From contig DWZD01000047.1 in the NCBI GenBank assembly GCA_019118345.1, forward strand, positions 1-64,000: a stretch of DNA of 64,000 nt, given 5' to 3'. A program made the position numbers and the translations under genes. The notes beneath the pieces were generated by a model that ran no database searches, was not told the origin of the DNA, and saw only the letters and a list, made by a program, of their open reading frames with translations. This DNA is from Candidatus Desulfovibrio intestinavium (GTDB taxonomy: Bacteria; Desulfobacterota; Desulfovibrionia; Desulfovibrionales; Desulfovibrionaceae). Shown in pieces: positions 5,218-44,890 of the stretch (its first letter is position 1; each line of letters starts with the position of its first letter).

Positions 5218-6936
5218 ATGTACAATCGTTATCAAAAAGCGCGCAACGACAGGCAGGCAAGGCCTTGCCCGTCTCGGGGGCCGCATGGCCGCCGGGCGTC
5301 GGGCCTGATCCCGGGCATCCTCGTGTTCGTGCTGTCGCTGCTTGCGCCGGCGGCCGGCACGGATGCTTCCGCTTCCCCGGGAGACCGGGCGGCGCAAAGC
5401 CTCTCTGCGCCGGTGGACGGCGACCGCATCATCTTCGGCAGCATCGGGGAAGCCTCCAATCTCATTCCCTACCTCTCCTCGGATTCCGCCTCGCACGATG
5501 TGGCGGACATGCTCTATGTGGCGCCCCTGCGCATGGACAAGAATCTCAATCCCGAAGTCTGGGCCGCGGAAAGTTACCGCGTGGAGGACGGCGGCAGGCG
5601 CTACCGCTTCACCCTGCGCAAGGGCATTCTCTGGGAGGACGGGCAGGAACTCACCACCGAGGATGTGGCCTTCACCTGGAAGCTGGTCTGCGATCCGGCC
5701 ACGGCCAGCCCCTATGCCGACGACTTTTTGCGGGTGAAGGAGCTGAAGGTCATTGACCGCTACACCTTTGAGGTGCATTACGATCAGTTCTTCGCCCGGG
5801 GCATCTTCACCTGGATGAATCCCATCCTGCCCAAGCACATTCTGGAAGGACAGGATATCCGCACGACATCCTTTGCCCGCAAGCCCGTGGGCGCGGGGCC
5901 GTACCGCCTCAAAAGCTGGGAGGCCGGCTCCCGCATCACGCTGTCGGCTTCGCCCACCTATTTTGCCGGACGCCCGCACATCGACGAGGTGGTCTATCGC
6001 ATCATTCCCGACATGGCCACCATGTTTCTGGAAACCCGGGCCGGGCAGCTGGATGTCATGAACCTGAGTCCGCTGCAGTACCTGCGGCAGACATCCGGCC
6101 CGGAATGGAGTCGGAATTTCAATAAATACCGCTACCTTGGCGGGTTGTATGTCTTTCTGGGCTTCAATCTCCAGCATCCCTTCTTCGCGGATGCGCGGGT
6201 GCGCCGGGCCATTTCGCAGGCCATTGACCGGCAGCGCATCGTGCGGGTGGTGCTGCTGGGCGAGGGCGAACCGGCCTTTGGCCCCTACAAGCCCGGCACC
6301 TGGCCCTACCATCCCACCCTCAAGCCCGTGGCATGCGATCCCGCCGCCGCCCGCGCCCTGCTGGAGGAGGCCGGTTTCCGCGATACGGACGGCGACGGCG
6401 TGCTGGACAGGGACGGCAAGCCCCTCGCCTTCACCATCCTCACCAATCAGGGCAATGAGGAGCGCATCCTCACGGCCACCCTCATTCAGGGCCAGCTCAG
6501 GGAGATCGGCGTGGCCGTGGAAATCCGGGTGGTGGAATGGGCGGCCTTCATCCGCGAATTCGTGAACAAGGGGCGCTTCGACGCGGTCATGCTGGGCTGG
6601 ACCATCACGTCCGACCCGGACATCTATCAGGTCTGGCACAGTTCGCAGGCCGTGGACGGCGGCCTGAACTTCACGCGCTACAAGAATCCCGAACTGGATC
6701 GCCTGCTGGAAGAGGCCCGCACCACGCCGGATCAGGAAACGCGCAAGCGCCTCTACTGGCGCGTGCAGGAAGTGCTGGCCGACGATCAGCCCTATTGCTT
6801 CCTGTATGTGCCATATTCCCTGCCCGTGGTGCAAAAGCGCTTCAGGGGCATCAAACCCGCGCTGGCGGGCATCATGTACAATTTCGAGGATTGGTGGGTG
6901 CCGCGCGAGCTGCAACGCCATACGGTGATGCCGTAG
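5218..6936 (+). CDS. ABC transporter oligopeptide/dipeptide substrate-binding protein (SBP_bac_5)
   Basis: Signal-peptide-like N-terminus; EASNLIPYLSSDSASHDVADMLYVAPLRMDKNLNPEVWAAESY and DARVRRAISQAIDRQRIV are typical of DppA/OppA-like proteins. Confidence 0.9.
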   Translation: MYNRYQKARNDRQARPCPSRGPHGRRASGLIPGILVFVLSLLAPAAGTDASASPGDRAAQSLSAPVDGDRIIFGSIGEASNLIPYLSSDSASHDVADMLYVAPLRMDKNLNPEVWAAESYRVEDGGRRYRFTLRKGILWEDGQELTTEDVAFTWKLVCDPATASPYADDFLRVKELKVIDRYTFEVHYDQFFARGIFTWMNPILPKHILEGQDIRTTSFARKPVGAGPYRLKSWEAGSRITLSASPTYFAGRPHIDEVVYRIIPDMATMFLETRAGQLDVMNLSPLQYLRQTSGPEWSRNFNKYRYLGGLYVFLGFNLQHPFFADARVRRAISQAIDRQRIVRVVLLGEGEPAFGPYKPGTWPYHPTLKPVACDPAAARALLEEAGFRDTDGDGVLDRDGKPLAFTILTNQGNEERILTATLIQGQLREIGVAVEIRVVEWAAFIREFVNKGRFDAVMLGWTITSDPDIYQVWHSSQAVDGGLNFTRYKNPELDRLLEEARTTPDQETRKRLYWRVQEVLADDQPYCFLYVPYSLPVVQKRFRGIKPALAGIMYNFEDWWVPRELQRHTVMP

Positions 6937-7152
6937 GCGGTCGTTGCGTGCAGGGATTCTCCGGGGGAGGAGGAAAGAGCGTCTCGCCCCGCACGTCCGC
7001 TCTTCGTCTGCCCGTCCCCCCCGCAGGATGGAGGAGGGGAGAGGGGCCTTCGTGCGCCTGTGCGGCAGCAGGCTGCGTGTGGAAAAGACAAACGGAGGAG
7101 GGGAAAGGCCCTCCTCCGCAAAAAAGACGGCGGGAAGCGGGAAAAGGGGCAA

Positions 7153-7692
7153 TCAGGCGGCCTTGGCCCCGCCGCTCTTCATCTGCTTTTGCAGTTCATT
7201 GATGAGCTGCTTTATTTCGGCCACAGCCTGCCGGGCTTCGGGATTCTGCCCGGCCTGGGCGGAAAGTTCGGCCATTTGCTGCACAAGGCTTTCCAGCTCC
7301 TTCTGCATGGCTTCCAGCGCCTCGGGATCCGCCTCGCCGGCGGCGCGGTTGACCTCGTAGCTGCCGTCCTCATTCATGCCGAGGGCGGCGCGGTATTCAG
7401 CGGCAAGGTCGCGTGCCGATGCGGCGGCGCCCGTCGTACCGACGGCAAGCGTATCCTGCCGGAGGGCGGACGCCGTCGCCGCCTGCTTCCGGCCGCTCAG
7501 CATGGCCTCGGCCAGCGCCCGGCCCTCCTCGGAGATGGTCACCGTATCGCCGCGCTGACGGGCGGCGGCCAGTACGCTGGAGAAGGAATTTCCCTGATTT
7601 CCGACCCGCGAGGTCTTCTGCGTCCGCAGGATCCCGGACAGGGGCGAGTTCTGTTGCGGCGTATCCGCGGAAAGGAGCGAAGGGGTGTTCAT
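7153..7692 (-). CDS. Hypothetical protein, Q/A-rich with coiled-coil C-terminus
   Basis: 179-aa ORF with helical LESLVQQMAELSAQAGQ...LINELQKQMK region; no family recognised. Confidence 0.6.
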   Translation of the reverse strand: MNTPSLLSADTPQQNSPLSGILRTQKTSRVGNQGNSFSSVLAAARQRGDTVTISEEGRALAEAMLSGRKQAATASALRQDTLAVGTTGAAASARDLAAEYRAALGMNEDGSYEVNRAAGEADPEALEAMQKELESLVQQMAELSAQAGQNPEARQAVAEIKQLINELQKQMKSGGAKAA

Positions 7693-7891
7693 GGCGAGCC
7701 TCCGGCAAGAATTGCCGTCTCAGCATCATGCAATAATGGATCCATGTTTTTCCGCGGGCAAGACGGCCGGGGCGGCGCAACCCGTTGACAAGCGGCGGAT
7801 CTTGACGGACAGTCAAAAGATGCAAGCGTGCGCGCTGTCATCCCTTGCGGATGTCGGGCCGCGCCAACGTCCTATCCCTCATGAGGCGGTC

Positions 7892-10060
7892 ATGATCCGT
7901 ATTCAGGAAATTCTCGACAAGGTGGCTGCGGGCAATCCCGACGCCGATCTGGAGCTTATACAGCGGGCCTATGTGTTTGCCGCAACGGCACACGCGGGGC
8001 AGACGCGCCTTTCCGGCGAGCCGTACCTCTCGCATCCGCTGGCCGTGGCCTATACGCTGGCGGAAATGGGCTTTGACGAGCCGACGGTGGCCGCCGGGCT
8101 GCTGCATGATACGGTGGAGGACACCAAGGCCACCATTGAGGAACTTGACGAAAACTTCGGCGAGGAAGTGGCCGATATCGTGGACGGGGTGACGAAAATC
8201 AGTCTCATCCCCTTTGACAACAAGGAAGAGGCGCAAGCCGAGAATATCCGCAAGATGATCCTGGCCATGAGTCACGACATGCGCGTGCTCATGGTCAAGC
8301 TGGCCGACCGCCTGCACAACATGCGCACGCTGGATTTCCAGAAGGCGTACAAGCAGCGGCGCATTGCGCAGGAAACCATGGATATCTACGCGCCGCTGGC
8401 CAACCGTCTGGGCCTCTATCTGCTCAAGCGCGATCTCGAAGACCTGAGCTTCAAATATCTCCAGCCGGACATTTACAATCAGATCGATCATTGGCTGGAC
8501 AAGCATCAGGTGGTGGAAAAGAAGATCATCGAAAAGGTGGTCTCCCTCATTCGCGATCTGCTGGATTCCAACAAGGTCAACGGGCAGGTCTACGGGCGCA
8601 TAAAGCACAAGTACAGCATCTGGAAAAAGATGCAGTCCCAGAATCTGACCCTTGACGAAATGCACGACATCATGGCCTTCCGCGTGCTGGTCAAGGACAT
8701 CAAGGATTGCTATGCCGTGCTGGGACTTGTCCATTCCCAGTGGAAGCCGGTACACGGGCGCTTCAAGGATTACATATCCATGCCCAAGTCCAACGGCTAC
8801 CAGAGCCTGCATACCACGGTCATCGGGCCGGAGGGCGAGCGCATCGAAATCCAGATCCGCACCGAGGACATGCACCGGCAGGCCGAGCACGGCGTGGCCG
8901 CGCACTGGCTCTACAAGGAAAAGGGGCGGGTCAATCCCCGCGATCTGGAACAGTTCTCCTGGCTGCGGGAAATTTTCGAGCGTCAGGGCGATGAGGCCGA
9001 CTCCCGCGAGTTCATGCACTCGCTCAAGCTCGACCTCTTCAAGGACGAAGTCTACGTCTACACGCCCGCCGGACAGGTCAAGGAATTGCCCGAAGGGGCC
9101 ACCCCGCTGGACTTTGCCTTCCTTATCCACACCAAGGTGGGGCACCACTGCGCCGGGGCCAAGATCAACGGCCGCCTCATGCCCCTGAGCACGCCGCTCA
9201 AGAACGGCGATACCGTGGAGATCATCACCGACCCCGCGCGCAATCCCAATCGCGACTGGCTCAAGATGGTCAAGACGGCCCGCGCCCGTACCCGCATTCA
9301 GCGCTATCTGCGCACCGAGGAGCGCGCCCATGCCATCACCCTTGGTCGGGACATGCTGGAGAAGGAAGGCCGCAAGATGAATCTCAATGTCAGCCGCGCC
9401 ACCAAGGACGGCCATCTGGCCATTGTGGCGCAGGACATGAATTTCGAGAATGCGGACGAGCTGACCGCCGCCGTGGGATATGCCCACATCACGCCCCGTC
9501 GCGTGCTCAACAAGCTCTATGCGGTCATGCATCCCGAGGCTGCGGCCGCCGCCGAACAGCCCGCCGCCCCCAGCATCAAGGAAAGCAAGGAAACCGCCAA
9601 GCGCAAGAGCGAGGGCGTGGGCATTTCCGGCGTGGATGGGGTGCTCATGCGCTTTGCCAAGTGCTGCAATCCCGTGCCCGGCGATCCCATCATCGGCTAC
9701 ATCAGCCGAGGCATGGGGGTGACCGTGCATCGTTCAGACTGCGCCAATGTGGCCAACATGGAGCCGGAGCGCCTCATTTCCGTGCACTGGGACGGCGCGG
9801 AAGAACAGCAGAAGCCCTATGAGGCGGGCATCTTCATCCTGGCGAAGAACGAACGCGGGGTGCTGGCCGACGTGACCCGCACCCTGGCCGGGGCCGACAT
9901 CAATATCATGAGCCTGACCGCCGTGAGCCTGCTGGACGGCCGTTCCGAAATCCATGTGACCGTAGAGGTCAAGGACGCCAGCCAGCTCTATGAACTCATT
10001 GAGGCCATCCGCAAGCTGCCGCTCATTCTCGAGGCGGTGCGCGATACTGAGGATGCCTGA
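7892..10060 (+). CDS. spoT: Bifunctional (p)ppGpp synthetase/hydrolase RelA/SpoT
   Basis: HD region (AGLLHDTVEDT), synthetase (YGRIKHKYSIWKKMQ, KSNGYQSLHTTV), TGS and C-terminal ACT. Start trimmed to MIRIQEILDKV at 7892. Confidence 0.95.
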   Translation: MIRIQEILDKVAAGNPDADLELIQRAYVFAATAHAGQTRLSGEPYLSHPLAVAYTLAEMGFDEPTVAAGLLHDTVEDTKATIEELDENFGEEVADIVDGVTKISLIPFDNKEEAQAENIRKMILAMSHDMRVLMVKLADRLHNMRTLDFQKAYKQRRIAQETMDIYAPLANRLGLYLLKRDLEDLSFKYLQPDIYNQIDHWLDKHQVVEKKIIEKVVSLIRDLLDSNKVNGQVYGRIKHKYSIWKKMQSQNLTLDEMHDIMAFRVLVKDIKDCYAVLGLVHSQWKPVHGRFKDYISMPKSNGYQSLHTTVIGPEGERIEIQIRTEDMHRQAEHGVAAHWLYKEKGRVNPRDLEQFSWLREIFERQGDEADSREFMHSLKLDLFKDEVYVYTPAGQVKELPEGATPLDFAFLIHTKVGHHCAGAKINGRLMPLSTPLKNGDTVEIITDPARNPNRDWLKMVKTARARTRIQRYLRTEERAHAITLGRDMLEKEGRKMNLNVSRATKDGHLAIVAQDMNFENADELTAAVGYAHITPRRVLNKLYAVMHPEAAAAAEQPAAPSIKESKETAKRKSEGVGISGVDGVLMRFAKCCNPVPGDPIIGYISRGMGVTVHRSDCANVANMEPERLISVHWDGAEEQQKPYEAGIFILAKNERGVLADVTRTLAGADINIMSLTAVSLLDGRSEIHVTVEVKDASQLYELIEAIRKLPLILEAVRDTEDA

Positions 10061-32073: not shown

Positions 32074-33150
32074 TCAGCGTGAAGGCGCCGCCCCCGGCTG
32101 GGGAACAATGGCGCACTTGATGCAGCCGTCGCGACGATGGGCAAAGACATCATAGGCGTCGGCGATATTTCCTAGTGGAAAGGTATGCGTGATAAGGGGC
32201 CGGGTGTCAAGCCGTCCCAGCTCGATGAGCCGGATGAGGCGGGCGCTGTGCACGGCATCCACGCCGCCGGTCTTGAAAATGAGATTCTTGCCGTACATGT
32301 GCGGCAGGGGCAGGGTCTGCGGCGCTTCATACAGGGCCACCAGCGCCACGCAGGCATTGGGCCGGGCCGCCTGCCAGGCCAGTTCAAAGGTGGCGGCCTC
32401 GCCCGCGCATTCGATGACCGCATCGGCCCCGCGCCCCTGCGTCAGCTCGCGCACCAGTCCGGCCATGTCGGCCGTGCCCATGCCGTCCGCCGCCCGGATG
32501 AGCGTATCCGCCGCGTTCATGCGGCGGGCCAGCTCCAGGCGGTCGGCACGTCTGTCCACGGCAATGATGCGCGCCGGGCCGAAGAGGCGCGCGCAAAGCA
32601 TGGCGCAGATGCCCACCGGCCCGGCTCCGATGACGAGTACCGTGTCGCCGGGACGAATGGCCGCCAGTTCCGCGCCGAAATAGCCGCTGGCCAGCACGTC
32701 CCCCACCAGCAGGGCCGAGAGGTCGTCCACGCTGTCCGGCAGCGCATCCAGCCCGTTGTCGGCAAAGGGCACGCGCACATATTCCGTCTGACAGCCGTCG
32801 ATGCGGCAGCCCAGTTCCCAGCCGCCCCGCTCGCAATTGTTGACGAAGCCCTGCCGGCAGAAAAAGCACTGCCCGCAGAAGGTTTCCACATTGACGGCCA
32901 CACGTTGTCCCGGTCGTACCCGCCGGACTTCCGCGCCGGTCTCCACCACCTCGCCGACAAATTCGTGCCCGAGGATGATGCCCGGCCGGGCGCGGGGCAC
33001 GGAGCCGTTCAGGATGTGCAAATCACTTGTGCAGATGCTGGAAAGGGTCACGCGCACCAGCGCATCGGTGGGGGCCTGCAGTTGCGGCAGGGGCCGCTCC
33101 TCGAGCCGGGCGTCGCCGGTAGCGTGATAAACGAGAGCCTGCATGGGCAT
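32074..33150 (-). CDS. Zinc-dependent alcohol dehydrogenase family (MDR) oxidoreductase
   Basis: GHEFVGEVVETG; CGQCFFCRQGFVNNCE; VLVIGAGPVGICAMLCARLFG. Start MPMQALVYH at 33150. Confidence 0.92.
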   Translation of the reverse strand: MPMQALVYHATGDARLEERPLPQLQAPTDALVRVTLSSICTSDLHILNGSVPRARPGIILGHEFVGEVVETGAEVRRVRPGQRVAVNVETFCGQCFFCRQGFVNNCERGGWELGCRIDGCQTEYVRVPFADNGLDALPDSVDDLSALLVGDVLASGYFGAELAAIRPGDTVLVIGAGPVGICAMLCARLFGPARIIAVDRRADRLELARRMNAADTLIRAADGMGTADMAGLVRELTQGRGADAVIECAGEAATFELAWQAARPNACVALVALYEAPQTLPLPHMYGKNLIFKTGGVDAVHSARLIRLIELGRLDTRPLITHTFPLGNIADAYDVFAHRRDGCIKCAIVPQPGAAPSR

Positions 33151-33415
33151 GGCGGCACCTCCTGCGCCGTTTTTTTGCGTACCGCGGCCAGAAGGCCTGC
33201 CGTCCCTGCGGCCTTCTGGCGAGAACATACACCGTTGCGGGGAGAGTAGCGCAAGATGCCCGGCCTGTCATGCCGCGCCGTTCAGCCCGTCTGCCGCCGC
33301 GGCGGATCTGGCCGGACGGGAGATGGATTTTCCCTTGCCATGCCCTGTTCCTCCCCGTACATTGAGCATCGCATATGTCCGTTGCGTTGGTGCGCATTGC
33401 GGTAGGGGGGAAATC

Positions 33416-36319
33416 ATGGCTCGCTTTGACTGGAAATTCGGCCTGCTTGCGGGGATGCTCGTTCTGTGTTGCCTTTGCCGGGAAGCCCGTGCCGAAAACC
33501 CGCAACAGGAGATCGCCGCGACCGCCCCCTTTCATTTCTTTCTGCCGGAAACCATGCGGCAGGATTATGCCGCGCAGCGGGTGGTGCGGGTCGGCTGGTT
33601 TGACCAGCATGCCGTTTTCATGGAGGAGGGGGGTCGGGTTTACGGCTATGCGCCGTCCCTGCTGGAAGCCCTTTCCCGCTATACCGGCTGGCGTATCGAA
33701 TGGATCCCCATTCCCTTCGAGGAGCTGGCGGACAAGCTCAATAACGGCGAGATCGACATTTCCTGCGGCATTTCCCGGACGCCGGAGCGTGCGCGGCAGA
33801 TGACCTTTTCCAAGCTGCAGGCAGGCTTTGAGATCACCACTCTGCATGTGCCCATGCAGAGTTCCATTCATTTCATGGATTTCAAGGACTTTGACGGACT
33901 GCGGCTCGGTTTTTTCCGGGGCGCGTACGAGCAGGACATTTTTCGCCGTCTGGGCAGGCAGTTCGGTTTTTCCTTCGATATCGTCGAGTTTGACGAGAGC
34001 CTGCCCATGCTGCAGGCCGTGCGTGATGGCCAGGTTGACGGCTATGTGGACGGCTGTCTGTCCGGCGTGGATACCAAGGTCGCGGGCACCTTTGCCATTG
34101 AGCCATTCTACTTTGTCTCCCGCAAGGGAGATACCACCTTCATGCCGCGCATCGACGAGGCCATGCGGCAGATGCAGCTGGTCAGCCCGCGCTATTTCGC
34201 CGCGCTTTTTGACAGTTTTCTCAATGTGGGCAGCAATGTGTCCATTACGCTTTCCCGGGGGGAGGAAGCGTGGCTGGCCCAAAAGCCCATGCTGCGCATG
34301 GCCTACAGCCGGCAACTGGAGAGCATGAATCCGGCGGGCGGGCCTCTGTTTGCCAAGCTCGCGCAGGAACTGGCCAAGCGGGCAGGCATCGGGCTGACAA
34401 TGGTTCCCGCCGAGTCCTATGAGGAAGCCCTTGCCATGCTCCGCCGGGGCGAGGCCGACATTGTCAGCGACCTTCTGCCCCTGGCCGACTTTACCCGGCG
34501 TTTCGGCCTGTTTGCCGGAGAGGTTCATTACAATGCGCCCATTGCCCTGGCCTCCACCAGGAACGTCCAGCCCGGCAGCGGCCTGCGCATCGCGGCCACG
34601 CGCGAATTTCTCAGCGTGGCCGAGGCCTATCGCCAGATATATCCCGCCGACAACATCGTTTTCTACCCGACGGAAAAAGAATGCGAGGCGGCTTTCAAGA
34701 AAGGGGAGGCCGACGCCTGGCTGCTTGTCTATCCCGGATCGGCAGAGCTGTTCAGCCGTGCGCAGCCCTACAATCTCAGCATAACCCAGGCCTTTTATCC
34801 CATGGCCTTCGGCTTCGGGCCACATGTTTCGCCCTATGCCGTTTCCATCTTTGACAAGCAGATCCTGGCCCTGTCCGGTGGGCAGGTGGAAACCTTCATG
34901 CGGGATCACACGCCGCGCACCGCCCAGGATATGCTGTTCGACATGCTGGCCCGCCATATTCTGTGGGTCATTGCGGGCATTATCCTGCTGGCGGCCCTGC
35001 TGTACTGGCGCAGGGGACAGGTCAACCGCCGGAACGTGCAGGTGCTGGAAAAGGCCGCCTATACCGATTCCGTGACCGGCGGCATCAATCGCGCCCGCTT
35101 TCTTATCGAAGGCGACGACCTGCTCATGGACGGGGCTGCGGAACATGTGGTCGTCAGCGTCAACATTCACAAGCTCACGCAGATCAATCGCTCCTGCGGT
35201 TACAGCAGCGGCGACTGGACCATCCGGCGCTGCTACGCCGAGTTGCAGAACCTGACATCCGGTCGGGAACTGGTGGCGCATGTGGGGGGCGGGCGTTTTC
35301 TCTGCCTGTGGCAATGTCCGGACGACAGCGATGTGGAAAGGCGGATGTCCCAGCTTTTCCATGCCGCCACCGTCCTGGGCGGGGAACTGCGGCACACCCT
35401 GGTGCTGGCTTGCGGCGTGGCCCGCATCCGTCAGTTTGACGGCAAGGTGGAACCCTTCGTGGCGGCGGCGGAAACCGCACAGGCCAGCATCGGCGACAAT
35501 ACCTACAAGTCGTCCTATGCCTTCTACGACGCGGAACTGGACACCATCGTGCAGCGCATGGCCGCACTGGAAAATCGCATGCAAGCGGCGCTGGACGCCG
35601 GCGAATTCGTGGTGCACATTCAGCCGCAGATCGAGCTGGCCTCCGGCAGCGTCAGCGGCGGCGAGGCGCTGGTGCGCTGGATGCCGCCGGACGGCAGCAA
35701 GATTTATCCCGACGAGTTCATTCCGCTTTTCGAGAAAAATGGCTTCATCCGCGAACTGGACATCTATATGCTGGATCAGGTCTGCCATTGGCTGCGCCAG
35801 CGGCTGGATGCGGGCAAGCGCGTGGTGCCCATCAGCATCAATCAATCCAAGGCCCTGTTCCTGACGGAGTCCTATTGCGACACCTTCCTGGCCGTGCTGG
35901 ATCGGCACAATACGCCGCATGACCTCATCGAGGTGGAAGTGACGGAATCCCTGGCGGCCTTCAATGAGGGGCTGGTGGTGGCCAATCTGCAACGGCTCAA
36001 GGCCTGGGGCATCAAGGTGGCCCTGGATGACTTCGGCAAGGGCTATTCCTCGCTGACGGCCCTGCAGCTCTTCCCGGTGGACGTGCTCAAGCTGGACAAG
36101 GAGTTCCTTTCGGATCGCTCCAGCCCGGCCATGCTGGAATCGCTCGTGCATCTTGGCGGCAAGCTGGGCCTCAAGGTGCTTTGCGAGGGCATCGAGACGC
36201 TGAAGCAGTTGCGCTTCCTCTCCAGCATCGGCTGCAATTACGGGCAGGGCTATTTCATTGCCCGGCCCATGCCCCTCGCGGAATTTGAGGAATTTCTGGC
36301 GCAGCGGGCCAGCCTGTAG
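33416..36319 (+). CDS. Sensor protein: two SBP_bac_3-like periplasmic domains, TM helix, degenerate GGDEF, EAL phosphodiesterase
   Basis: ERARQMTFSKLQ SBP-like; GGGRF in place of GGDEF; intact EAL residues GGEALVRW, INQS, EVTES, LDDFGKGYSS, KLDKEF, CEGIET, QGYFIARPM. Confidence 0.88.
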   Translation: MARFDWKFGLLAGMLVLCCLCREARAENPQQEIAATAPFHFFLPETMRQDYAAQRVVRVGWFDQHAVFMEEGGRVYGYAPSLLEALSRYTGWRIEWIPIPFEELADKLNNGEIDISCGISRTPERARQMTFSKLQAGFEITTLHVPMQSSIHFMDFKDFDGLRLGFFRGAYEQDIFRRLGRQFGFSFDIVEFDESLPMLQAVRDGQVDGYVDGCLSGVDTKVAGTFAIEPFYFVSRKGDTTFMPRIDEAMRQMQLVSPRYFAALFDSFLNVGSNVSITLSRGEEAWLAQKPMLRMAYSRQLESMNPAGGPLFAKLAQELAKRAGIGLTMVPAESYEEALAMLRRGEADIVSDLLPLADFTRRFGLFAGEVHYNAPIALASTRNVQPGSGLRIAATREFLSVAEAYRQIYPADNIVFYPTEKECEAAFKKGEADAWLLVYPGSAELFSRAQPYNLSITQAFYPMAFGFGPHVSPYAVSIFDKQILALSGGQVETFMRDHTPRTAQDMLFDMLARHILWVIAGIILLAALLYWRRGQVNRRNVQVLEKAAYTDSVTGGINRARFLIEGDDLLMDGAAEHVVVSVNIHKLTQINRSCGYSSGDWTIRRCYAELQNLTSGRELVAHVGGGRFLCLWQCPDDSDVERRMSQLFHAATVLGGELRHTLVLACGVARIRQFDGKVEPFVAAAETAQASIGDNTYKSSYAFYDAELDTIVQRMAALENRMQAALDAGEFVVHIQPQIELASGSVSGGEALVRWMPPDGSKIYPDEFIPLFEKNGFIRELDIYMLDQVCHWLRQRLDAGKRVVPISINQSKALFLTESYCDTFLAVLDRHNTPHDLIEVEVTESLAAFNEGLVVANLQRLKAWGIKVALDDFGKGYSSLTALQLFPVDVLKLDKEFLSDRSSPAMLESLVHLGGKLGLKVLCEGIETLKQLRFLSSIGCNYGQGYFIARPMPLAEFEEFLAQRASL

Positions 36320-38171: not shown

Positions 38172-39647
38172 TTGCGCGCCAATATTCTGTGTGCCGGTCT
38201 GGGGACGCGTCTGCGTCCGCTTACCTATATAAAACCCAAGCCCCTGCTGAGCATCGGCGGCTTCCCGCTGGTGGAGCGCACCATTCGCCAGCTGCGCGCC
38301 GACGGCGTGAGCGACATTGCGCTGGTGGTGGGCTACAAGCGGGAATGTTTCGACTATCTGCAAGAAAAATATGGCGTTCGGCTCATTGTTTCCGAACGCT
38401 ACGACACGGCCAACAACTTTTCCTCGCTGGAACTGGTGGCGGATCGTCTGGGCGACAGCCTGGTCATTGACGGCGATCTTTATATCCGGCGGCCCATTGT
38501 GCCGCTGGTGCGGCCCGGCGTTTCGCAGTTCATCTGCCAGAAGACGCAGCGCGGCACGGAATGGGAACTGCTCACGGATGCGCAGGATCGCGTGGTGGGC
38601 GTGAAAAAGGACTCGCCCGACGGCTATGCCATGTCCGGCATTTCCTACTGGACGGAAGAGGCCGCCGCGCTCCTGCGCGAGGAACTGGCCCGCAGCGGCC
38701 CGGACGACTACTGGGAAGATGCGGCCATCCGCATCCTTGATCGCACGCCGGTCTACGCCGTGCGGACAAAACTCCTGCAATGCGAGATCGACAGCCTTGA
38801 GGATGTGCTCTCCCTCGGCCTGCTTTCGGCGGACGAACTGGCCGACCAATGCTCGGAAACGAGCATGGCCGAAAAGCTCAAGAGCCTGACCAACGATACC
38901 TACCTCATCCGCCTGCACGGCAGGGATGTGGTGTTGCGCATCCCGGGCCGGGGCACGGATCAGATCATCGACCGCAGTCTGGAATCGGCCATGCTGGAGC
39001 TGCTGCGCGGCATGGACATCACGCCGGAATGCACCTTCTATTCCGGCGGCATCAAGACCACGGACTTTTTGCGGGGCTACGGCATCCTGACCCCGGAGAC
39101 GCTGGATGAGGCGACCATCGCCGGCGTGGCGCGGCTCATGGGGCGGCTGCATGCCATTCCCATGCCGCCGGGCTTTGACGCGCTCCACGGCCCCAATGCG
39201 GCCCTGTCCGTCCTCAATGAGGTCAAGCTCTACGAGCGGCAAAGCGGCATCAACCTGCTGGCCGACGAGGAACGCGACCTGCTCTACGACTTTGCCCGCG
39301 AAATGGACAGGGATGAAAAATGCTTCTGTCATCGTGACTTCGTGCTGGAAAATATCCTGCGGCGCGGGGACAGCATGCAGCTCATCGACTTTGAATATGC
39401 CTGCTTCTGTTCCCGCTACTGGGATTACGCCAGCTTCGTGACGGAAACGCGGCTTTCCGACGACCGTCTGGCGTCCTTTGTCCGCACCTGCGGGCTGGAT
39501 GAGCGGCGTCTGCTCAAGGCCGTGATCATCGTGGACTATATCTGGGGCCTGTGGGGCTTTTATCGCGAATGCATCGACTACGGGCGCGGCCGCATTGCGG
39601 AGATGGATCGCAATCTGCGTCGCTATCAGGCCGGAGGCACGTTGTGA
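38172..39647 (+). CDS. LicC-like nucleotidyltransferase fused to LicA/choline-kinase-like kinase
   Basis: ILCAGLGTRLRPLTYIKPKPLL plus CHRDFVLENIL...QLIDFEYA. TTG start at 38172 preceded by GGGAGGGAGA Shine-Dalgarno. Confidence 0.85.
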   Translation: MRANILCAGLGTRLRPLTYIKPKPLLSIGGFPLVERTIRQLRADGVSDIALVVGYKRECFDYLQEKYGVRLIVSERYDTANNFSSLELVADRLGDSLVIDGDLYIRRPIVPLVRPGVSQFICQKTQRGTEWELLTDAQDRVVGVKKDSPDGYAMSGISYWTEEAAALLREELARSGPDDYWEDAAIRILDRTPVYAVRTKLLQCEIDSLEDVLSLGLLSADELADQCSETSMAEKLKSLTNDTYLIRLHGRDVVLRIPGRGTDQIIDRSLESAMLELLRGMDITPECTFYSGGIKTTDFLRGYGILTPETLDEATIAGVARLMGRLHAIPMPPGFDALHGPNAALSVLNEVKLYERQSGINLLADEERDLLYDFAREMDRDEKCFCHRDFVLENILRRGDSMQLIDFEYACFCSRYWDYASFVTETRLSDDRLASFVRTCGLDERRLLKAVIIVDYIWGLWGFYRECIDYGRGRIAEMDRNLRRYQAGGTL

Positions 39648-40993
39648 GCCGCTCCCGCCTTCTCCTGACGGGGCTGTGCCTCTGCCTTCTGCTGGAGGCG
39701 GCCTTTCCCGCCCCCGCGCACGCCTATCTTGACCCCGGCACGGGCAACATCCTTGTTTATGTGGCCATCAGTCTGGTGGGGACGGTTCTCTATTTCCTGA
39801 AAAATCTGGTCTACGCCCTCATGGGGCGCGCCCGGGGCGAACGGGCAGGGGGGCGGGAGCTGCATCATGAGCGCATCCTGATCTTTTCCGAGGGCCGTTC
39901 CTACTTTTATACCTTCAAGCCCATCATCGACGCCCTCTTGCGGCGGGAAATCCCCTTTTCCTACATCACGATGGACATGGAGGATCCGGCCCTGACCATC
40001 GAGAACGATCTCATGGATTCCCGCTACATCGGCAACGGCGCGGCGGCCTATGCCCGCGCGGCAGGCCGTCGGGCGGACGTCATGCTTTCCACCACGCCCA
40101 ACATCGGCACGCCGGGCTTTCCCATGCCGCGTCCGCGCCGGGTGAAATGTCTGGCCCATGTCTGCCACGGCGTGGGAGACATTGCCATGTATCAGAAGGG
40201 ATCGCTTGATCATTACGACGCCGTGCTCATGGTGGGGGATTTCATGCTGCCGAGCATTCGCCGTCTGGAGGAAATGCGCGGCCTGCCCGCCAAGGAATGC
40301 GTGTCCCTCGGCCTGCCCTATCTGGACGAGCTGGCCGCGCGGGCGCACCCCCGGCAGGGGAGAAACGCGCCGCCCGTGGTGCTGGTGGCGCCGTCCTGGG
40401 GCAACAAGGGCTGCCTTTCCGTCTGCGGGCCGCAATTTCTCGTGGATCTGGCCAGGGCCGGCTACGAGGTCATTTTCCGGCCCCATCCGCAATCGCTCAG
40501 GGTGGAAACGGAGATGCTGGCCTCCATCCACGAACTGTTGCGCGACTTCGACAATGTGACCTTTGATACGGACATGGATGCCACGGCCTCCATGAGCCGG
40601 GCCGACGTGATGATTTCCGACAAGTCCTGCGTGCGCTTCGACTTCGCCTTTCTCTACGAACGGCCGGTCATCACCCTGGACATCCCGGTGCGCAATCCCG
40701 AACTCTACGAGGTGGCGGATCTGGGCGTGGTCTGGGAAGATACCGTGGCCGCCCGTCTGGGCGAGGTGGTCGCACCGGAACACTTTGACCGTATTCTGCC
40801 CGCCGTGGAACGGGCGCTGACCATGCCGCCAGCGGCGCTGGCCGCCTTTCGCGACGAATGCGTGGCCTGCTGGGGCCGCAGCGGGGAAGCCATTGCGCAA
40901 TGGACGCTGGACAAGCTGCGGGCTGACGGCGGGCCGTGCGATGAGGGCGATGCCCCTGCCGCCGCGCCGGACGCGGCCCCGGCGCAACGCTAG
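39644..40993 (+). CDS. CDP-glycerol glycerophosphotransferase (TagB/TagF)-like protein with N-terminal membrane segment
   Basis: GTG start overlapping previous stop; AYLDPGTGNILVYVAISLVGTVLYFL; VLVAPSWGNKG...VIFRPHPQSLR...DVMISDKSCVRFDFAFLYERPVITLD. Confidence 0.82.
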   Translation: MSRSRLLLTGLCLCLLLEAAFPAPAHAYLDPGTGNILVYVAISLVGTVLYFLKNLVYALMGRARGERAGGRELHHERILIFSEGRSYFYTFKPIIDALLRREIPFSYITMDMEDPALTIENDLMDSRYIGNGAAAYARAAGRRADVMLSTTPNIGTPGFPMPRPRRVKCLAHVCHGVGDIAMYQKGSLDHYDAVLMVGDFMLPSIRRLEEMRGLPAKECVSLGLPYLDELAARAHPRQGRNAPPVVLVAPSWGNKGCLSVCGPQFLVDLARAGYEVIFRPHPQSLRVETEMLASIHELLRDFDNVTFDTDMDATASMSRADVMISDKSCVRFDFAFLYERPVITLDIPVRNPELYEVADLGVVWEDTVAARLGEVVAPEHFDRILPAVERALTMPPAALAAFRDECVACWGRSGEAIAQWTLDKLRADGGPCDEGDAPAAAPDAAPAQR

Positions 40994-41146: not shown

Positions 41147-43687
41147 ATGATGTCGCTACTGTACGAAATATTCATCCTGCCCATCGAAATCATCTATCGC
41201 GCCATTTACCTCGGCAGCGTGCAGCTCACCGGCAATTACGGCCTGAGCATCCTTGTGCTGTCCGCGGTCAGCGCCGTGGCCTTCATACCGCTGGGCCGTC
41301 TGGCCGTGGGCATGCAGGCCGGGGAAAAGAAGGTGCAGCAGATCATGGCCCCGCAGCTGGCCCGCATCCGCAGCGAGTCCAGGGGGGCTGAGCGTCAGCG
41401 CCGCATCAACAAGCTCTACCGGCGTTATGCCTATCACCCGCTGCTGGCCATTCGCTCGGCCTTTGGCGTTGCCCTGCAGATTCCCTTCCTGACCGGGGCC
41501 TACTACATGATTCTGAGCCTGGATCAGCTGCAGGGCCAGTCCTTCCTCTGCATTGCCGATCTCTCGCGGCCCGACGGCCTGCTGTGGGGCGTGAATTTCC
41601 TGCCCATTCTCATGACCGTGGTGAACATCACCGCCACCTTCACCACGCCGGGCTTGAGCCGCAAGGACAGACTGCAGGCCGTGATCATCGCCTTCTTCTT
41701 CCTGCTCCTGCTCTACGGCGCGGCCTCGGCCCTGCTCATCTTCTGGACCATGAACAACGTCTTCTTCCTGCTCCAGAATCTGCGCCTGCCGGTGAAGCTG
41801 CCGCGCTTCCGCAAGCCCGTCTTTGCCCAGGGCGCCATGAGCACGGCCACGGGCAGCCTGTTGCGCTCCGTCTATGCCCTGTCCTGCGCGGGTCTTGCGG
41901 CCCTGCTCTTTCTCTATGTGCCCTTTCAGGCCTATGCCTCGGATCCGGCCTTCTTCGCCAGCGGGGCGCTGGACGTGCTGCTGGGCATGGTGCGCTATCT
42001 CTCGCTGACCTTCTTCATCGTCTTTGTGCTCTGGCTCTGGTTTCCGGCGCGGGGCAAGGTCATCCCGGCCTTTGTGGCCTTCTGCGCCCTCTGCGTGGCC
42101 TTTGTGAACGTCTTTGTCCTGCCGGCGGATTTCGGCGCGCTGGACGGCACCCGTTTTCTGGATGAGGCCCGCATCGGGCGGCCCATGCGGCTTTTGAGCG
42201 ACGCCCTGCTGCCTGTCATCGGCGGCATGGCCGTGGCCTCGCTGTGCTTCGCCCTTGTGCGGGTGCGCCGCGTGCTGCCGCAGGCGCTCGCCATCGCGCT
42301 CTTTTCCCTGCTGGTGCTGTCGGGCTACGCGGGGCTGACCGCGCCGGGCGCGGTCAAGGAGGAGAGCGCCTTCACACCGCCGCCCTATGCGCGGGCCATG
42401 CAGTCCTATTCCCGCCATGATGAAAACGTCATCGTGGTCATCATGGACATGTTCACCGGCGGCCATGTGGAAAAGATGCTGGATGATCCGTGGTTCGAGG
42501 ATTTCCGTGCCGGCATGGACGGTTTTGTCTGGTATCCCGATACGGTATCCATGGCCGACGCCACGGTGCTGAGCCTGCCCAGCATCTACGGCGGGCACGG
42601 CTACAGCCCGGCAGCCACCAATGCACGCCGTTCCCTGACCCTGGAAGAGAACATCAACAAGGCCTTTGCCCTCATGCCGCGCAATTTCGCGGCCCATGAC
42701 TACGATGTGACCATCGTCAACGGTCTGGACTACTTCAATGAGGAGCTGTACGCCCGCCACGGCGGCGCGGCCGACAACATCCTCACCGTGCCGCGCGTGC
42801 GCCGCACCTTCCTGCGCAAGTATTACGACGACGTGAGCCTGCGGGACTTCAGCAGCTTCTTTGCCATGCTGGGCCTGTTCCAGGCCGTGCCGGACATGTT
42901 CCGGCAAAAGCTCTACGATGACGGCAACTGGAAGAATGCCGGGGACGGCATCCTGGCCGCCAGCATGGATTATTACAAGGAGGAGGACGCCTGGTTCCGC
43001 TATGTCTTCACCTCCGGCATCACGGCGGATGCCCCGCGCGGCACGGCCAAGATCTTCTATACCATGCTGTCGCATTACATGTGGCACTATGCGCCGGATC
43101 TCGCGGACGGCGCGCCCCGCATCGTGGCCGATCCCTGCCCGGAGACCGAAGGCCAGCTCATCCACAAGGGCGGCGTCCTGCCGGAACACTATTATGCGGA
43201 ACGCCACCTCATGCGCTATCTCCTGATTTTTTTCCGGCAGCTCAAGGAAGCGGGCGTGTACGACAATTCGCGCATCATCCTTGTCTCCGATCACGGCGAA
43301 CGCGACAGTCAGATGGTGGCCCGCGCCTACAACGAAGGCCGGGAATTTGCCGACGGCGTACCCTACGGCAGCGGTCGGTACGCGCCGGGACGGCCCCATG
43401 CCCTGCTCATGGTCAAGGAGCCGGGCGCGCGCGGCCCGTTGCGCATCAATGAGGCCTTCATGTCCAGCGCCGACGTGCCGCTGCTGGCCCTCAAGGGCAT
43501 CGGCGCCTGCGACGAGTTCGAACTCTACGATCCGGCCCGCGCGCCGAAGCCGCGCGTCCTCACCCATGCCCGGGGCGGGGCGCGCTGGAGCGAACACGGC
43601 GAAAAGGCCTATATCTATGAGCAGCACCGGCTGGAGGGGACGCTCTTTGATCCGGCCAAAAACACCTATGACGGGGATTATGATTAG
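41147..43687 (+). CDS. YidC/Oxa1-like membrane insertase domain fused to alkaline-phosphatase-superfamily (sulfatase / phosphoalcohol-transferase-like) domain
   Basis: N-terminal YidC pattern NYGLSILVLSAVSAVAFIPL...YRRYAYHPLLAIRSAFGVALQIPFLTGAYYMI...FLCIADLSRPD...FWTMNNVFFLLQNL; C-terminal NVIVVIMDMFTGGH...DNSRIILVSDHGERD. Confidence 0.85.
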   Translation: MMSLLYEIFILPIEIIYRAIYLGSVQLTGNYGLSILVLSAVSAVAFIPLGRLAVGMQAGEKKVQQIMAPQLARIRSESRGAERQRRINKLYRRYAYHPLLAIRSAFGVALQIPFLTGAYYMILSLDQLQGQSFLCIADLSRPDGLLWGVNFLPILMTVVNITATFTTPGLSRKDRLQAVIIAFFFLLLLYGAASALLIFWTMNNVFFLLQNLRLPVKLPRFRKPVFAQGAMSTATGSLLRSVYALSCAGLAALLFLYVPFQAYASDPAFFASGALDVLLGMVRYLSLTFFIVFVLWLWFPARGKVIPAFVAFCALCVAFVNVFVLPADFGALDGTRFLDEARIGRPMRLLSDALLPVIGGMAVASLCFALVRVRRVLPQALAIALFSLLVLSGYAGLTAPGAVKEESAFTPPPYARAMQSYSRHDENVIVVIMDMFTGGHVEKMLDDPWFEDFRAGMDGFVWYPDTVSMADATVLSLPSIYGGHGYSPAATNARRSLTLEENINKAFALMPRNFAAHDYDVTIVNGLDYFNEELYARHGGAADNILTVPRVRRTFLRKYYDDVSLRDFSSFFAMLGLFQAVPDMFRQKLYDDGNWKNAGDGILAASMDYYKEEDAWFRYVFTSGITADAPRGTAKIFYTMLSHYMWHYAPDLADGAPRIVADPCPETEGQLIHKGGVLPEHYYAERHLMRYLLIFFRQLKEAGVYDNSRIILVSDHGERDSQMVARAYNEGREFADGVPYGSGRYAPGRPHALLMVKEPGARGPLRINEAFMSSADVPLLALKGIGACDEFELYDPARAPKPRVLTHARGGARWSEHGEKAYIYEQHRLEGTLFDPAKNTYDGDYD

Positions 43688-43801: not shown

Positions 43802-44890
43802 ATGGAAGCATTGACAGCAATGACGGGCCATCCGGCCGCGACGACCGCCCGCAACCGGCTCTTTCGCCGGTATCGGGCCTGGGGCATTACGGTAGCCGTG
43901 CTTTCCGGCATGTCCTATGGCCTGTATTCGGCCTTCATGACTCTGGGCATGGGCCTCGGCGTCTGGAAAGGCTGGTACGGGGAGGCTTCCGGCCTCTCGG
44001 CCTTTGCGACGCTCTTTCTGCTGAGCGCGCTGGGGGCGGCGGTGACGGACTGCTGCAGTGCGGTCTGGGCCGTCCTGCTGGCCGCGCTCAAGGGCAAGCT
44101 CGGCGACGTGCCGCGCAGCTGGAAAACACGGCCCGGCCTGATCATGACCGTGGCCGCCTTCATCGGCGGGCCGCTGGCCAGCACCTGCTATGTGCTGGGC
44201 CTGCAGAACGCCGGCTCGGTGGTGGTGCCCCTGAGCGCCCTGTGTCCGGCCATCGGGGCCATTCTGGGCCGGGTGGTGTTCAGGCAGATGCTCAATGTGC
44301 GGATCATGGCGGGCATTCTCATCTGCTTTGCCGCCAGCTTCATGATCGGCAGCACGGGACTCACCGGGGAAGCGCCCGCCAATCTGTATCTGGGGCTGGC
44401 CTTCGGCCTGCTGGCCGCTCTGGGCTGGGGCATAGAGGGCTGCGTTTGCGGCTACGGCACGGCGCTCATTGATCCCGAGGTGGGCATCACCATCCGGCAG
44501 ATCACCTCCGGCCTGTCCAATCTCATCCTGCTGGTGCCGCTTTTCGGCTGGATCGGCGGGGCGGATGCGCTGAACATGGCCTGCGCCGCCTTTGCGGACG
44601 GCCATTCCATAGGCTGGTTCGTTCTGGCCGGTTTTTGCGCCTATTTTGCCTTCATGCTCTGGTATCAGGGCAACGCCATGTGCGGGGCCGCGCTGGGCAT
44701 GGCCTGCAACGGGGCCTTCTCCTTCTGGGGGCCGTTCTTCATCTGGCTGGTGCTGGGGGTGGGCTACGGCATGGAAGGCAAGAACATGCCGCCCATCGCC
44801 TGGCTGGCCTCGCTGGTCATGGTCTGCGGCATTTTCCTCATTGCCGTGAATCCGTTGCAGCTGTTCCGCCGCGAAGGGGAAGGGAGGTAG
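43802..44890 (+). CDS. DMT-superfamily (EamA-like) 10-TM transporter
   Basis: GITVAVLSGMSYGLYSAFMTLGMG; LQNAGSVVVPLSALCPAIGAILGRVVFRQMLN repeat pattern. Confidence 0.8.
   Translation: MEALTAMTGHPAATTARNRLFRRYRAWGITVAVLSGMSYGLYSAFMTLGMGLGVWKGWYGEASGLSAFATLFLLSALGAAVTDCCSAVWAVLLAALKGKLGDVPRSWKTRPGLIMTVAAFIGGPLASTCYVLGLQNAGSVVVPLSALCPAIGAILGRVVFRQMLNVRIMAGILICFAASFMIGSTGLTGEAPANLYLGLAFGLLAALGWGIEGCVCGYGTALIDPEVGITIRQITSGLSNLILLVPLFGWIGGADALNMACAAFADGHSIGWFVLAGFCAYFAFMLWYQGNAMCGAALGMACNGAFSFWGPFFIWLVLGVGYGMEGKNMPPIAWLASLVMVCGIFLIAVNPLQLFRREGEGR

Follow-up and report, generated by a model that had tools for sequence, protein, structure and literature searches.

The third of four genes in a cluster of Candidatus Desulfovibrio intestinavium encodes a protein of 846 amino acids in which a YidC/Oxa1 core is fused, within one uninterrupted open reading frame that starts with ATG, to a domain of the alkaline phosphatase (AP) superfamily. 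The cluster lies in the window, i.e., the whole stretch of 64,000 nucleotides that was analyzed, and its gene order is LicC-LicA fusion, Glyphos, YidC-AP, EamA permease. The fusion protein (YidC-AP) probably acts as an extracytoplasmic transferase together with Glyphos and CDP-activated headgroups, and its gene neighborhoods point to decoration with choline, ethanolamine or aminoethylphosphonate (AEP). More specifically, we propose, with confidence that is evenly balanced, that it is an extracytoplasmic phospho- or phosphonyl-headgroup transferase with a built-in membrane module of the YidC fold, broadly understood as one that the headgroup crosses or sits in, and that it is the final component of a three-part system for surface decoration. 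The features of the cluster are as follows.

38172..39647, + strand: LicC-LicA fusion of a CTP:phosphocholine cytidylyltransferase with a choline kinase (start codon TTG, preceded by GGGAGG; PDB and Pfam matches)
39644..40993, + strand: Glyphos_transf (TagF/TarL-like) CDP-alcohol phosphotransferase, here Glyphos, with an N-terminal YLDPGTG-TM anchor (PF04464, profile, motif, AlphaFold2)
41147..43687, + strand: YidC-AP fusion protein (single open ORF, PF02096 match, AP-superfamily fold)
41237..41782, + strand: YidC/Oxa1 core domain, residues 31-212, five TM helices and a cytoplasmic helical hairpin (PF02096, AlphaFold2 helices, groove column)
41789..41833, + strand: flexible linker joining the two modules, residues 215-229 (AlphaFold2 confidence, pLDDT <50)
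41843..42340, + strand: second membrane block, EptA/LtaS-like, five TM helices, residues 233-398 (hydropathy, AlphaFold2 helices)
42389..43684, + strand: AP domain, about residues 415-846, with D434, T473, H643, D715 and H716 (conservation, Foldseek, LtaS profile match)
43802..44890, + strand: EamA/DMT-family permease (PF00892, 28.1 bits, narrowly below the 28.2 cutoff)

The preliminary description, made from the sequence alone, had read the first ~220 residues as a YidC core. Indeed, the Pfam family PF02096 matches residues 31-212 (E = 5.4e-17, 62.7 bits) above its gathering cutoff of 35, and a PDB search retrieved the YidC structures 3wo7 (2.1e-9) and, from Escherichia coli, 3wvf (3.6e-6). 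The AlphaFold2 model of the fusion (pLDDT 87.9, pTM 0.81) places helices of this part at residues 31-77, 80-93, 98-123, 151-166, 172-188 and 194-211. The protein resembles the YidC/Oxa1/Alb3 insertases in its PF02096 match, its helix order and its helical hairpin. The further TM helices expected after the YidC part are also present: five precede the AP domain in the model, and the corresponding hydropathy peaks are at 245-256, 282-301, 308-325, 357-365 and 382-394.

The remainder had been described as similar to sulfatases and phosphoethanolamine transferases. Single-sequence HMM searches with this part gave weak matches (Pfam Sulfatase, 0.012; DUF229, 0.0032), and the Sulfatase domain sought in the fusion, PF00884, scored 15.4 bits, under the cutoff of 25. 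The AP fold is recovered by other means, namely a profile of 91 fusion proteins, which matches LtaS at 1e-7 and also sulfatases, the AlphaFold2 model and the Foldseek search with that model, where the best PDB matches were PbgA (1.6e-7), a phosphonate monoester hydrolase, LtaS (3.8e-7) and EptA (4.5e-7), with MCR-1 close behind. Judged from the model, the nearest folds of the AP part are thus those of lipid-headgroup transferases and of phospho- and phosphonate hydrolases. The order of five TM helices followed by an AP domain with an Asp/Thr/Asp-His site is shared with EptA/MCR-1, PptA and LtaS, from which the fusion differs in the additional N-terminal YidC core and in sequence (about 11-15% identity in fold alignments). 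Given the ten TM helices and the usual topology of YidC, with the N-terminus out, we infer that the AP domain is located outside the inner membrane. The AP assignment of the preliminary description therefore stands, and gene context indicates a system for choline, ethanolamine or AEP headgroups over a generic sulfatase or ethanolamine transferase.

The two halves of the protein differ in what they conserve. Among 91 aligned fusions, D434 is present in 90, and T473, H643, D715 and H716 are found in all; by homology, these residues would be the metal ligands and the nucleophile of AP-superfamily transferases, T473 being the putative nucleophile, in line with the metal site and Thr/Ser nucleophile anticipated from the sequence (D434, T473, D715, H716). 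The hydrophilic groove of YidC contains a positively charged residue (R73 in Bacillus halodurans, R366 in E. coli), and a conserved Arg had been suggested as a residue to look for here as well. It is absent: the groove position is A43 in the window fusion and N, T, S or A in 89 of the 91 fusions, with Arg or Lys in none of them, whereas Lys occupies it in 18 of 20 genuine YidC proteins of the same order, the other two being short fragments. Apart from this loss, the fusions differ from genuine YidC in the invariant residues S39, Y96, T157, N160 and Y190, and N150 lacks a counterpart; S39, T157 and N160 are invariant polar residues inside predicted TM helices of the YidC part. A separate, normal YidC is encoded elsewhere in the same genome. 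The loss of the groove charge and the new invariants, in a protein whose AP domain keeps the expected metal and nucleophile residues, support a repurposed YidC fold. The earlier proposal that the insertase fold may have been repurposed as a scaffold or lipid groove is thus supported in part, with respect to the repurposing; scaffold and groove are weighed against each other below.

The fusion is a real single gene. A scan of species genomes yielded 248 related stretches; the 74 loci retained come from Desulfovibrio piger and its relatives, Mailhella, Photobacterium, many Treponema, Oscillospiraceae, Lachnospiraceae and Gastranaerophilales. As one gene, the fusion recurs in Desulfovibrio, Mailhella, Photobacterium, Treponema, Clostridia and others. 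Relatives in the form of a single ORF are 73-91% identical when they come from Desulfovibrio, whereas those of other groups share about 24-40% identity. Within the family of the host, Desulfovibrionaceae, 12 of 149 sampled genomes contain matches, nearly all of them full-length, and two to four copies of the fusion are present in 32 of the 74 loci. That two genes were joined by an artefact of assembly or annotation might be suspected because some Treponema putidum copies consist of two ORFs split near the linker. However, the single fused ORF is found in dozens of independent assemblies from several phyla, complete genomes included, and close relatives carry the same fused gene rather than separate ones; since the same ORF recurs in Desulfovibrio and other groups, assembly fusion is ruled out, and the probability that we assign to an artefact is negligible.

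Two variations within the family deserve mention. Several longer Desulfovibrionaceae fusions of about 955-1035 aa (L006, L007, L009, L010, L014, L076) contain an extra insert, probably a membrane segment, between the YidC core and the five-TM block. Two Glyphos genes accompany an array of YidC-AP copies at positions 2064051-2083274 of T. putidum (L066, L134-L137); several of the YidC-AP copies consist of a YidC-only ORF and a TM-AP ORF or are otherwise broken near the linker, perhaps by decay or phase variation.

The most consistent neighbor of the fusion is Glyphos, which is encoded in 58 of the 74 loci; in 45 loci it is read in the same direction as the fusion and is at most 200 bp away from it. 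The median spacing is 6-18 bp and many of the genes overlap. Many of the loci without Glyphos stop at a contig edge, and in five loci with long flanks (L036, L050, L068, L081, L092) it was not found nearby. Across the 149 Desulfovibrionaceae genomes, Glyphos is present in 11, all of which are among the 12 with the fusion (Fisher p = 9e-16, a value that overstates independence because the genomes are related). The Glyphos protein of the window matches PF04464 (2.8e-5; 23.7 bits, cutoff 22.1), its profile matches Cps3D (5.2e-9), TarL and TagF, and its AlphaFold2 model (pLDDT 90.3) has GT-B-type fold matches. The likeness to the TagF/TarL CDP-alditol phosphotransferases thus lies in the profile matches; unlike these enzymes, Glyphos is a protein of about 450 aa with a YLDPGTG-TM anchor, and its neighbors indicate choline, ethanolamine or AEP headgroups, which are unable to chain into a polymer. 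Considered as a polymer synthase, Glyphos is an unlikely candidate, choline phosphate having no free hydroxyl for extension; since choline phosphate cannot polymerize in the manner of glycerol phosphate, Glyphos is more likely a loading or capping enzyme.

The motif YLDPGTG(S) followed by one TM helix is found at the N-terminus of 61 of 63 Glyphos partners (that of the window and 62 homologs from L025-L098). Conversely, all 68 ORFs in these loci that have this pattern are Glyphos, and no other protein there displays it. We hypothesize that the motif may be a docking or targeting signal. At every locus, fusion copies are at least as numerous as Glyphos copies (103 vs 65 in 56 loci). In three-part glycan-tailoring systems, a single loading enzyme can serve several outer transferases, and the copy pattern observed here resembles that arrangement.

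In the window itself, the supply module is of the choline type. The LicC-LicA fusion matches LicC (PDB 1jyk, 1.8e-33), a choline kinase (4r77, 7.6e-15) and Pfam Choline_kinase (3.3e-18). The EamA permease is, by its position, a probable choline uptake protein with a LicB-like role; a PDB search with it gave no match and so lends no support to LicB homology. A homolog of this permease adjoins choline kinase in L071. The cluster thus resembles the Lic-1 phosphocholine pathway (LicA, LicB, LicC, LicD) in combining fused choline kinase and CTP:phosphocholine cytidylyltransferase homologs with a small permease. It differs from Lic-1 in that LicD (PF04991) was not detected in the host genome, which is rated 99.98% complete, and Glyphos and YidC-AP appear to replace it. 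A search of this genome for LicD or an extra CDP-alcohol phosphotransferase as the consumer of CDP-choline found neither; the only CDP-alcohol phosphotransferases are PgsA and PssA (named from reading ORFs and context), which leaves Glyphos as the only visible user of CDP-choline.

Three chemistries recur beside the fusion, choline, phosphonate (AEP) and, as a prediction, ethanolamine, with a CMP-activated zwitterion as the common element. A cytidylyltransferase is encoded in 50 of the 74 loci, about a third being without one in the flank covered. The choline chemistry (choline kinase/LicC) includes a choline kinase in seven loci. The phosphonate module combines PEP mutase, phosphonopyruvate decarboxylase (Ppd) and an NTP-transferase/AEP aminotransferase; PEP mutase lies beside the fusion in L040, L048, L064 and L077, and in L040 PEP mutase, Ppd and AEP aminotransferase each score above the NCBIfam cutoff. 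T. putidum is different in that 31 kb separate its phosphonate genes from the array of fusions. The third type of module, present in 28 loci (L039, positions 6115-7914, and 27 others), joins an NTP-transferase and a CobD-like decarboxylase in one protein; it matches PDB 6oux (4.6e-44), annotated as threonine-phosphate-decarboxylase-like, which we take to be SMUL_1544. The latter protein has been proposed as a source of ethanolamine phosphate (PMC4585668), and from this match the module is predicted to supply CDP-ethanolamine. We rejected the assumption that the NTP-aminotransferase fusions of Treponema and Clostridia are all PntC-AEPT, as PDB and NCBIfam matches distinguish two kinds, one with AEP aminotransferase (L040) and one with a CobD/phosphoserine-decarboxylase-like part (L039). 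The latter is a candidate by which Treponema and Clostridia would convert phosphoserine to CDP-ethanolamine with a single protein. The types of supply module are intermixed in the tree of the fusions, suggesting repeated exchange of the headgroup supply around a constant Glyphos/YidC-AP pair.

In Photobacterium and Mailhella (L032, L033, L035), the fusion is paired with an importer of AEP (an AEP ABC transporter in L032) and a small cytidylyltransferase (CTP_transf_like), which suggests that these bacteria scavenge phosphonate and display it at the surface.

Starting from the architecture, the AP-site conservation, the altered groove and the gene association observed in sequences and models, we infer a lipid-linked donor that the YidC domain would flip or position, in the following order. 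Cytoplasmic enzymes would make a CMP-activated zwitterion, in the window CDP-choline produced by the LicC-LicA fusion; membrane-anchored Glyphos would load the headgroup from CDP onto a lipid carrier in the inner leaflet; the YidC-derived domain, which lacks the positive groove residue that serves peptide insertion, would allow the polar headgroup to traverse the bilayer or reside in it; and at the outer face the five-TM AP module would accept it on T473 and hand it to a surface glycan, lipid or protein. AP-type transferases such as EptA and LtaS draw headgroups from lipids at the outer face, and a lipid loaded inside must cross the membrane, a passage that the fused YidC core would supply. 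E. coli YidC has been shown to scramble lipids in vitro (PMC10491306, preprint). By analogy, a specific role of the YidC domain in the lipid path may be envisaged, with confidence slightly short of even. Speaking against such a role, the same preprint found less scrambling in simulations of insertion mutants, among them a mutant of B. halodurans YidC. Still more tentatively, and less likely than not, evolution of a YidC-type fold could have produced a dedicated flippase for headgroup lipids that is joined to its own transferase. A single polypeptide would then move choline, ethanolamine or phosphonate groups derived from CDP to the outer side and attach them there, which would represent a new class of three-part systems for surface modification. 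As counterpoints to the model, about a third of the loci show no cytidylyltransferase in the flank covered, the five long-flank loci show no Glyphos nearby, and the phosphonate genes of T. putidum are distant from the fusions; moreover, Glyphos might directly decorate a cytoplasmic glycan, with the AP enzyme then acting on another substrate, e.g., phosphatidylethanolamine (PE).

Among other explanations of the fusion, we consider it unlikely, to a lesser degree than the two that follow, that the YidC fold is a docking platform that holds Glyphos, via the YLDPGTG-TM anchor, beside the AP module, coupling the cytoplasmic and outer steps while the lipid moves by another route. YidC folds bind TM helices, and docking would fit the near-universal motif, exclusive to Glyphos in these loci, as well as the tight coupling of the two genes. 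Nevertheless, it leaves the invariant polar TM residues unexplained and offers no account of how the donor crosses the membrane, and the frequent presence of several fusion copies per Glyphos also speaks against it.

A further alternative, which appears improbable, is that the donor of the AP module is an ordinary membrane lipid, PE or PG, as it is for EptA and LtaS, two of its best fold matches. The CDP-headgroup genes would then serve a parallel modification carried out wholly by Glyphos in the cytoplasm, and the YidC part would provide only anchoring or folding. The host does appear to make PE, its PssA gene adjoining an ORF that reads as Psd; yet the repeated co-location of three different CMP-activated zwitterion pathways and the matching phyletic patterns of the fusion and Glyphos argue for one pathway. 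Least credible of these is a working insertase joined to an unrelated hydrolase merely for coupled expression. The helices and cytoplasmic hairpin of YidC are retained in the model, and certain functions of YidC withstand removal of the groove Arg, but the host encodes a YidC of its own, and in all 91 fusions the groove charge is gone, with new invariants elsewhere. The groove without Arg or Lys, the new invariants and the attachment to an enzyme are also what sets the fusion apart from the YidC/Oxa1/Alb3 insertases.

A three-part decoration system with YidC-AP as its last component would bear on two gaps in the literature. The Pnt (phosphonyl tailoring) pathway with PntC of Treponema denticola (PDB 6pd1) resembles the Treponema loci, where fusions adjoin PEP mutase, Ppd and the PntC/AEP-aminotransferase fusion (at a distance in T. 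putidum); its steps after CMP-AEP were left unknown, and the text contains no YidC or sulfatase genes (PMC6697681). In a survey of phosphocholine genes, no evidence was found of Lic-1 and PptA-type enzymes in the same species, and undiscovered routes were suspected (PMC10434233); the window has a Lic-like CDP-choline module beside an AP-type enzyme other than PptA. The Glyphos/YidC-AP pair is a concrete candidate for both. If the proposal is correct, it would fill the final steps of bacterial phosphonate decoration and of LicD-less phosphocholine decoration, would exemplify the conversion of an insertase fold into a component of an enzyme, and would offer a test in a natural protein of the claim that YidC folds move lipids. 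An open-access literature search combining YidC with sulfatase, AP, phosphonate or Lic found no paper on this architecture and no characterized member.

Upstream of the cluster, at 33143-36319, there is a large ORF which, judged by eye, encodes tandem solute-binding-like regions and a C-terminal GGDEF/EAL-like part.
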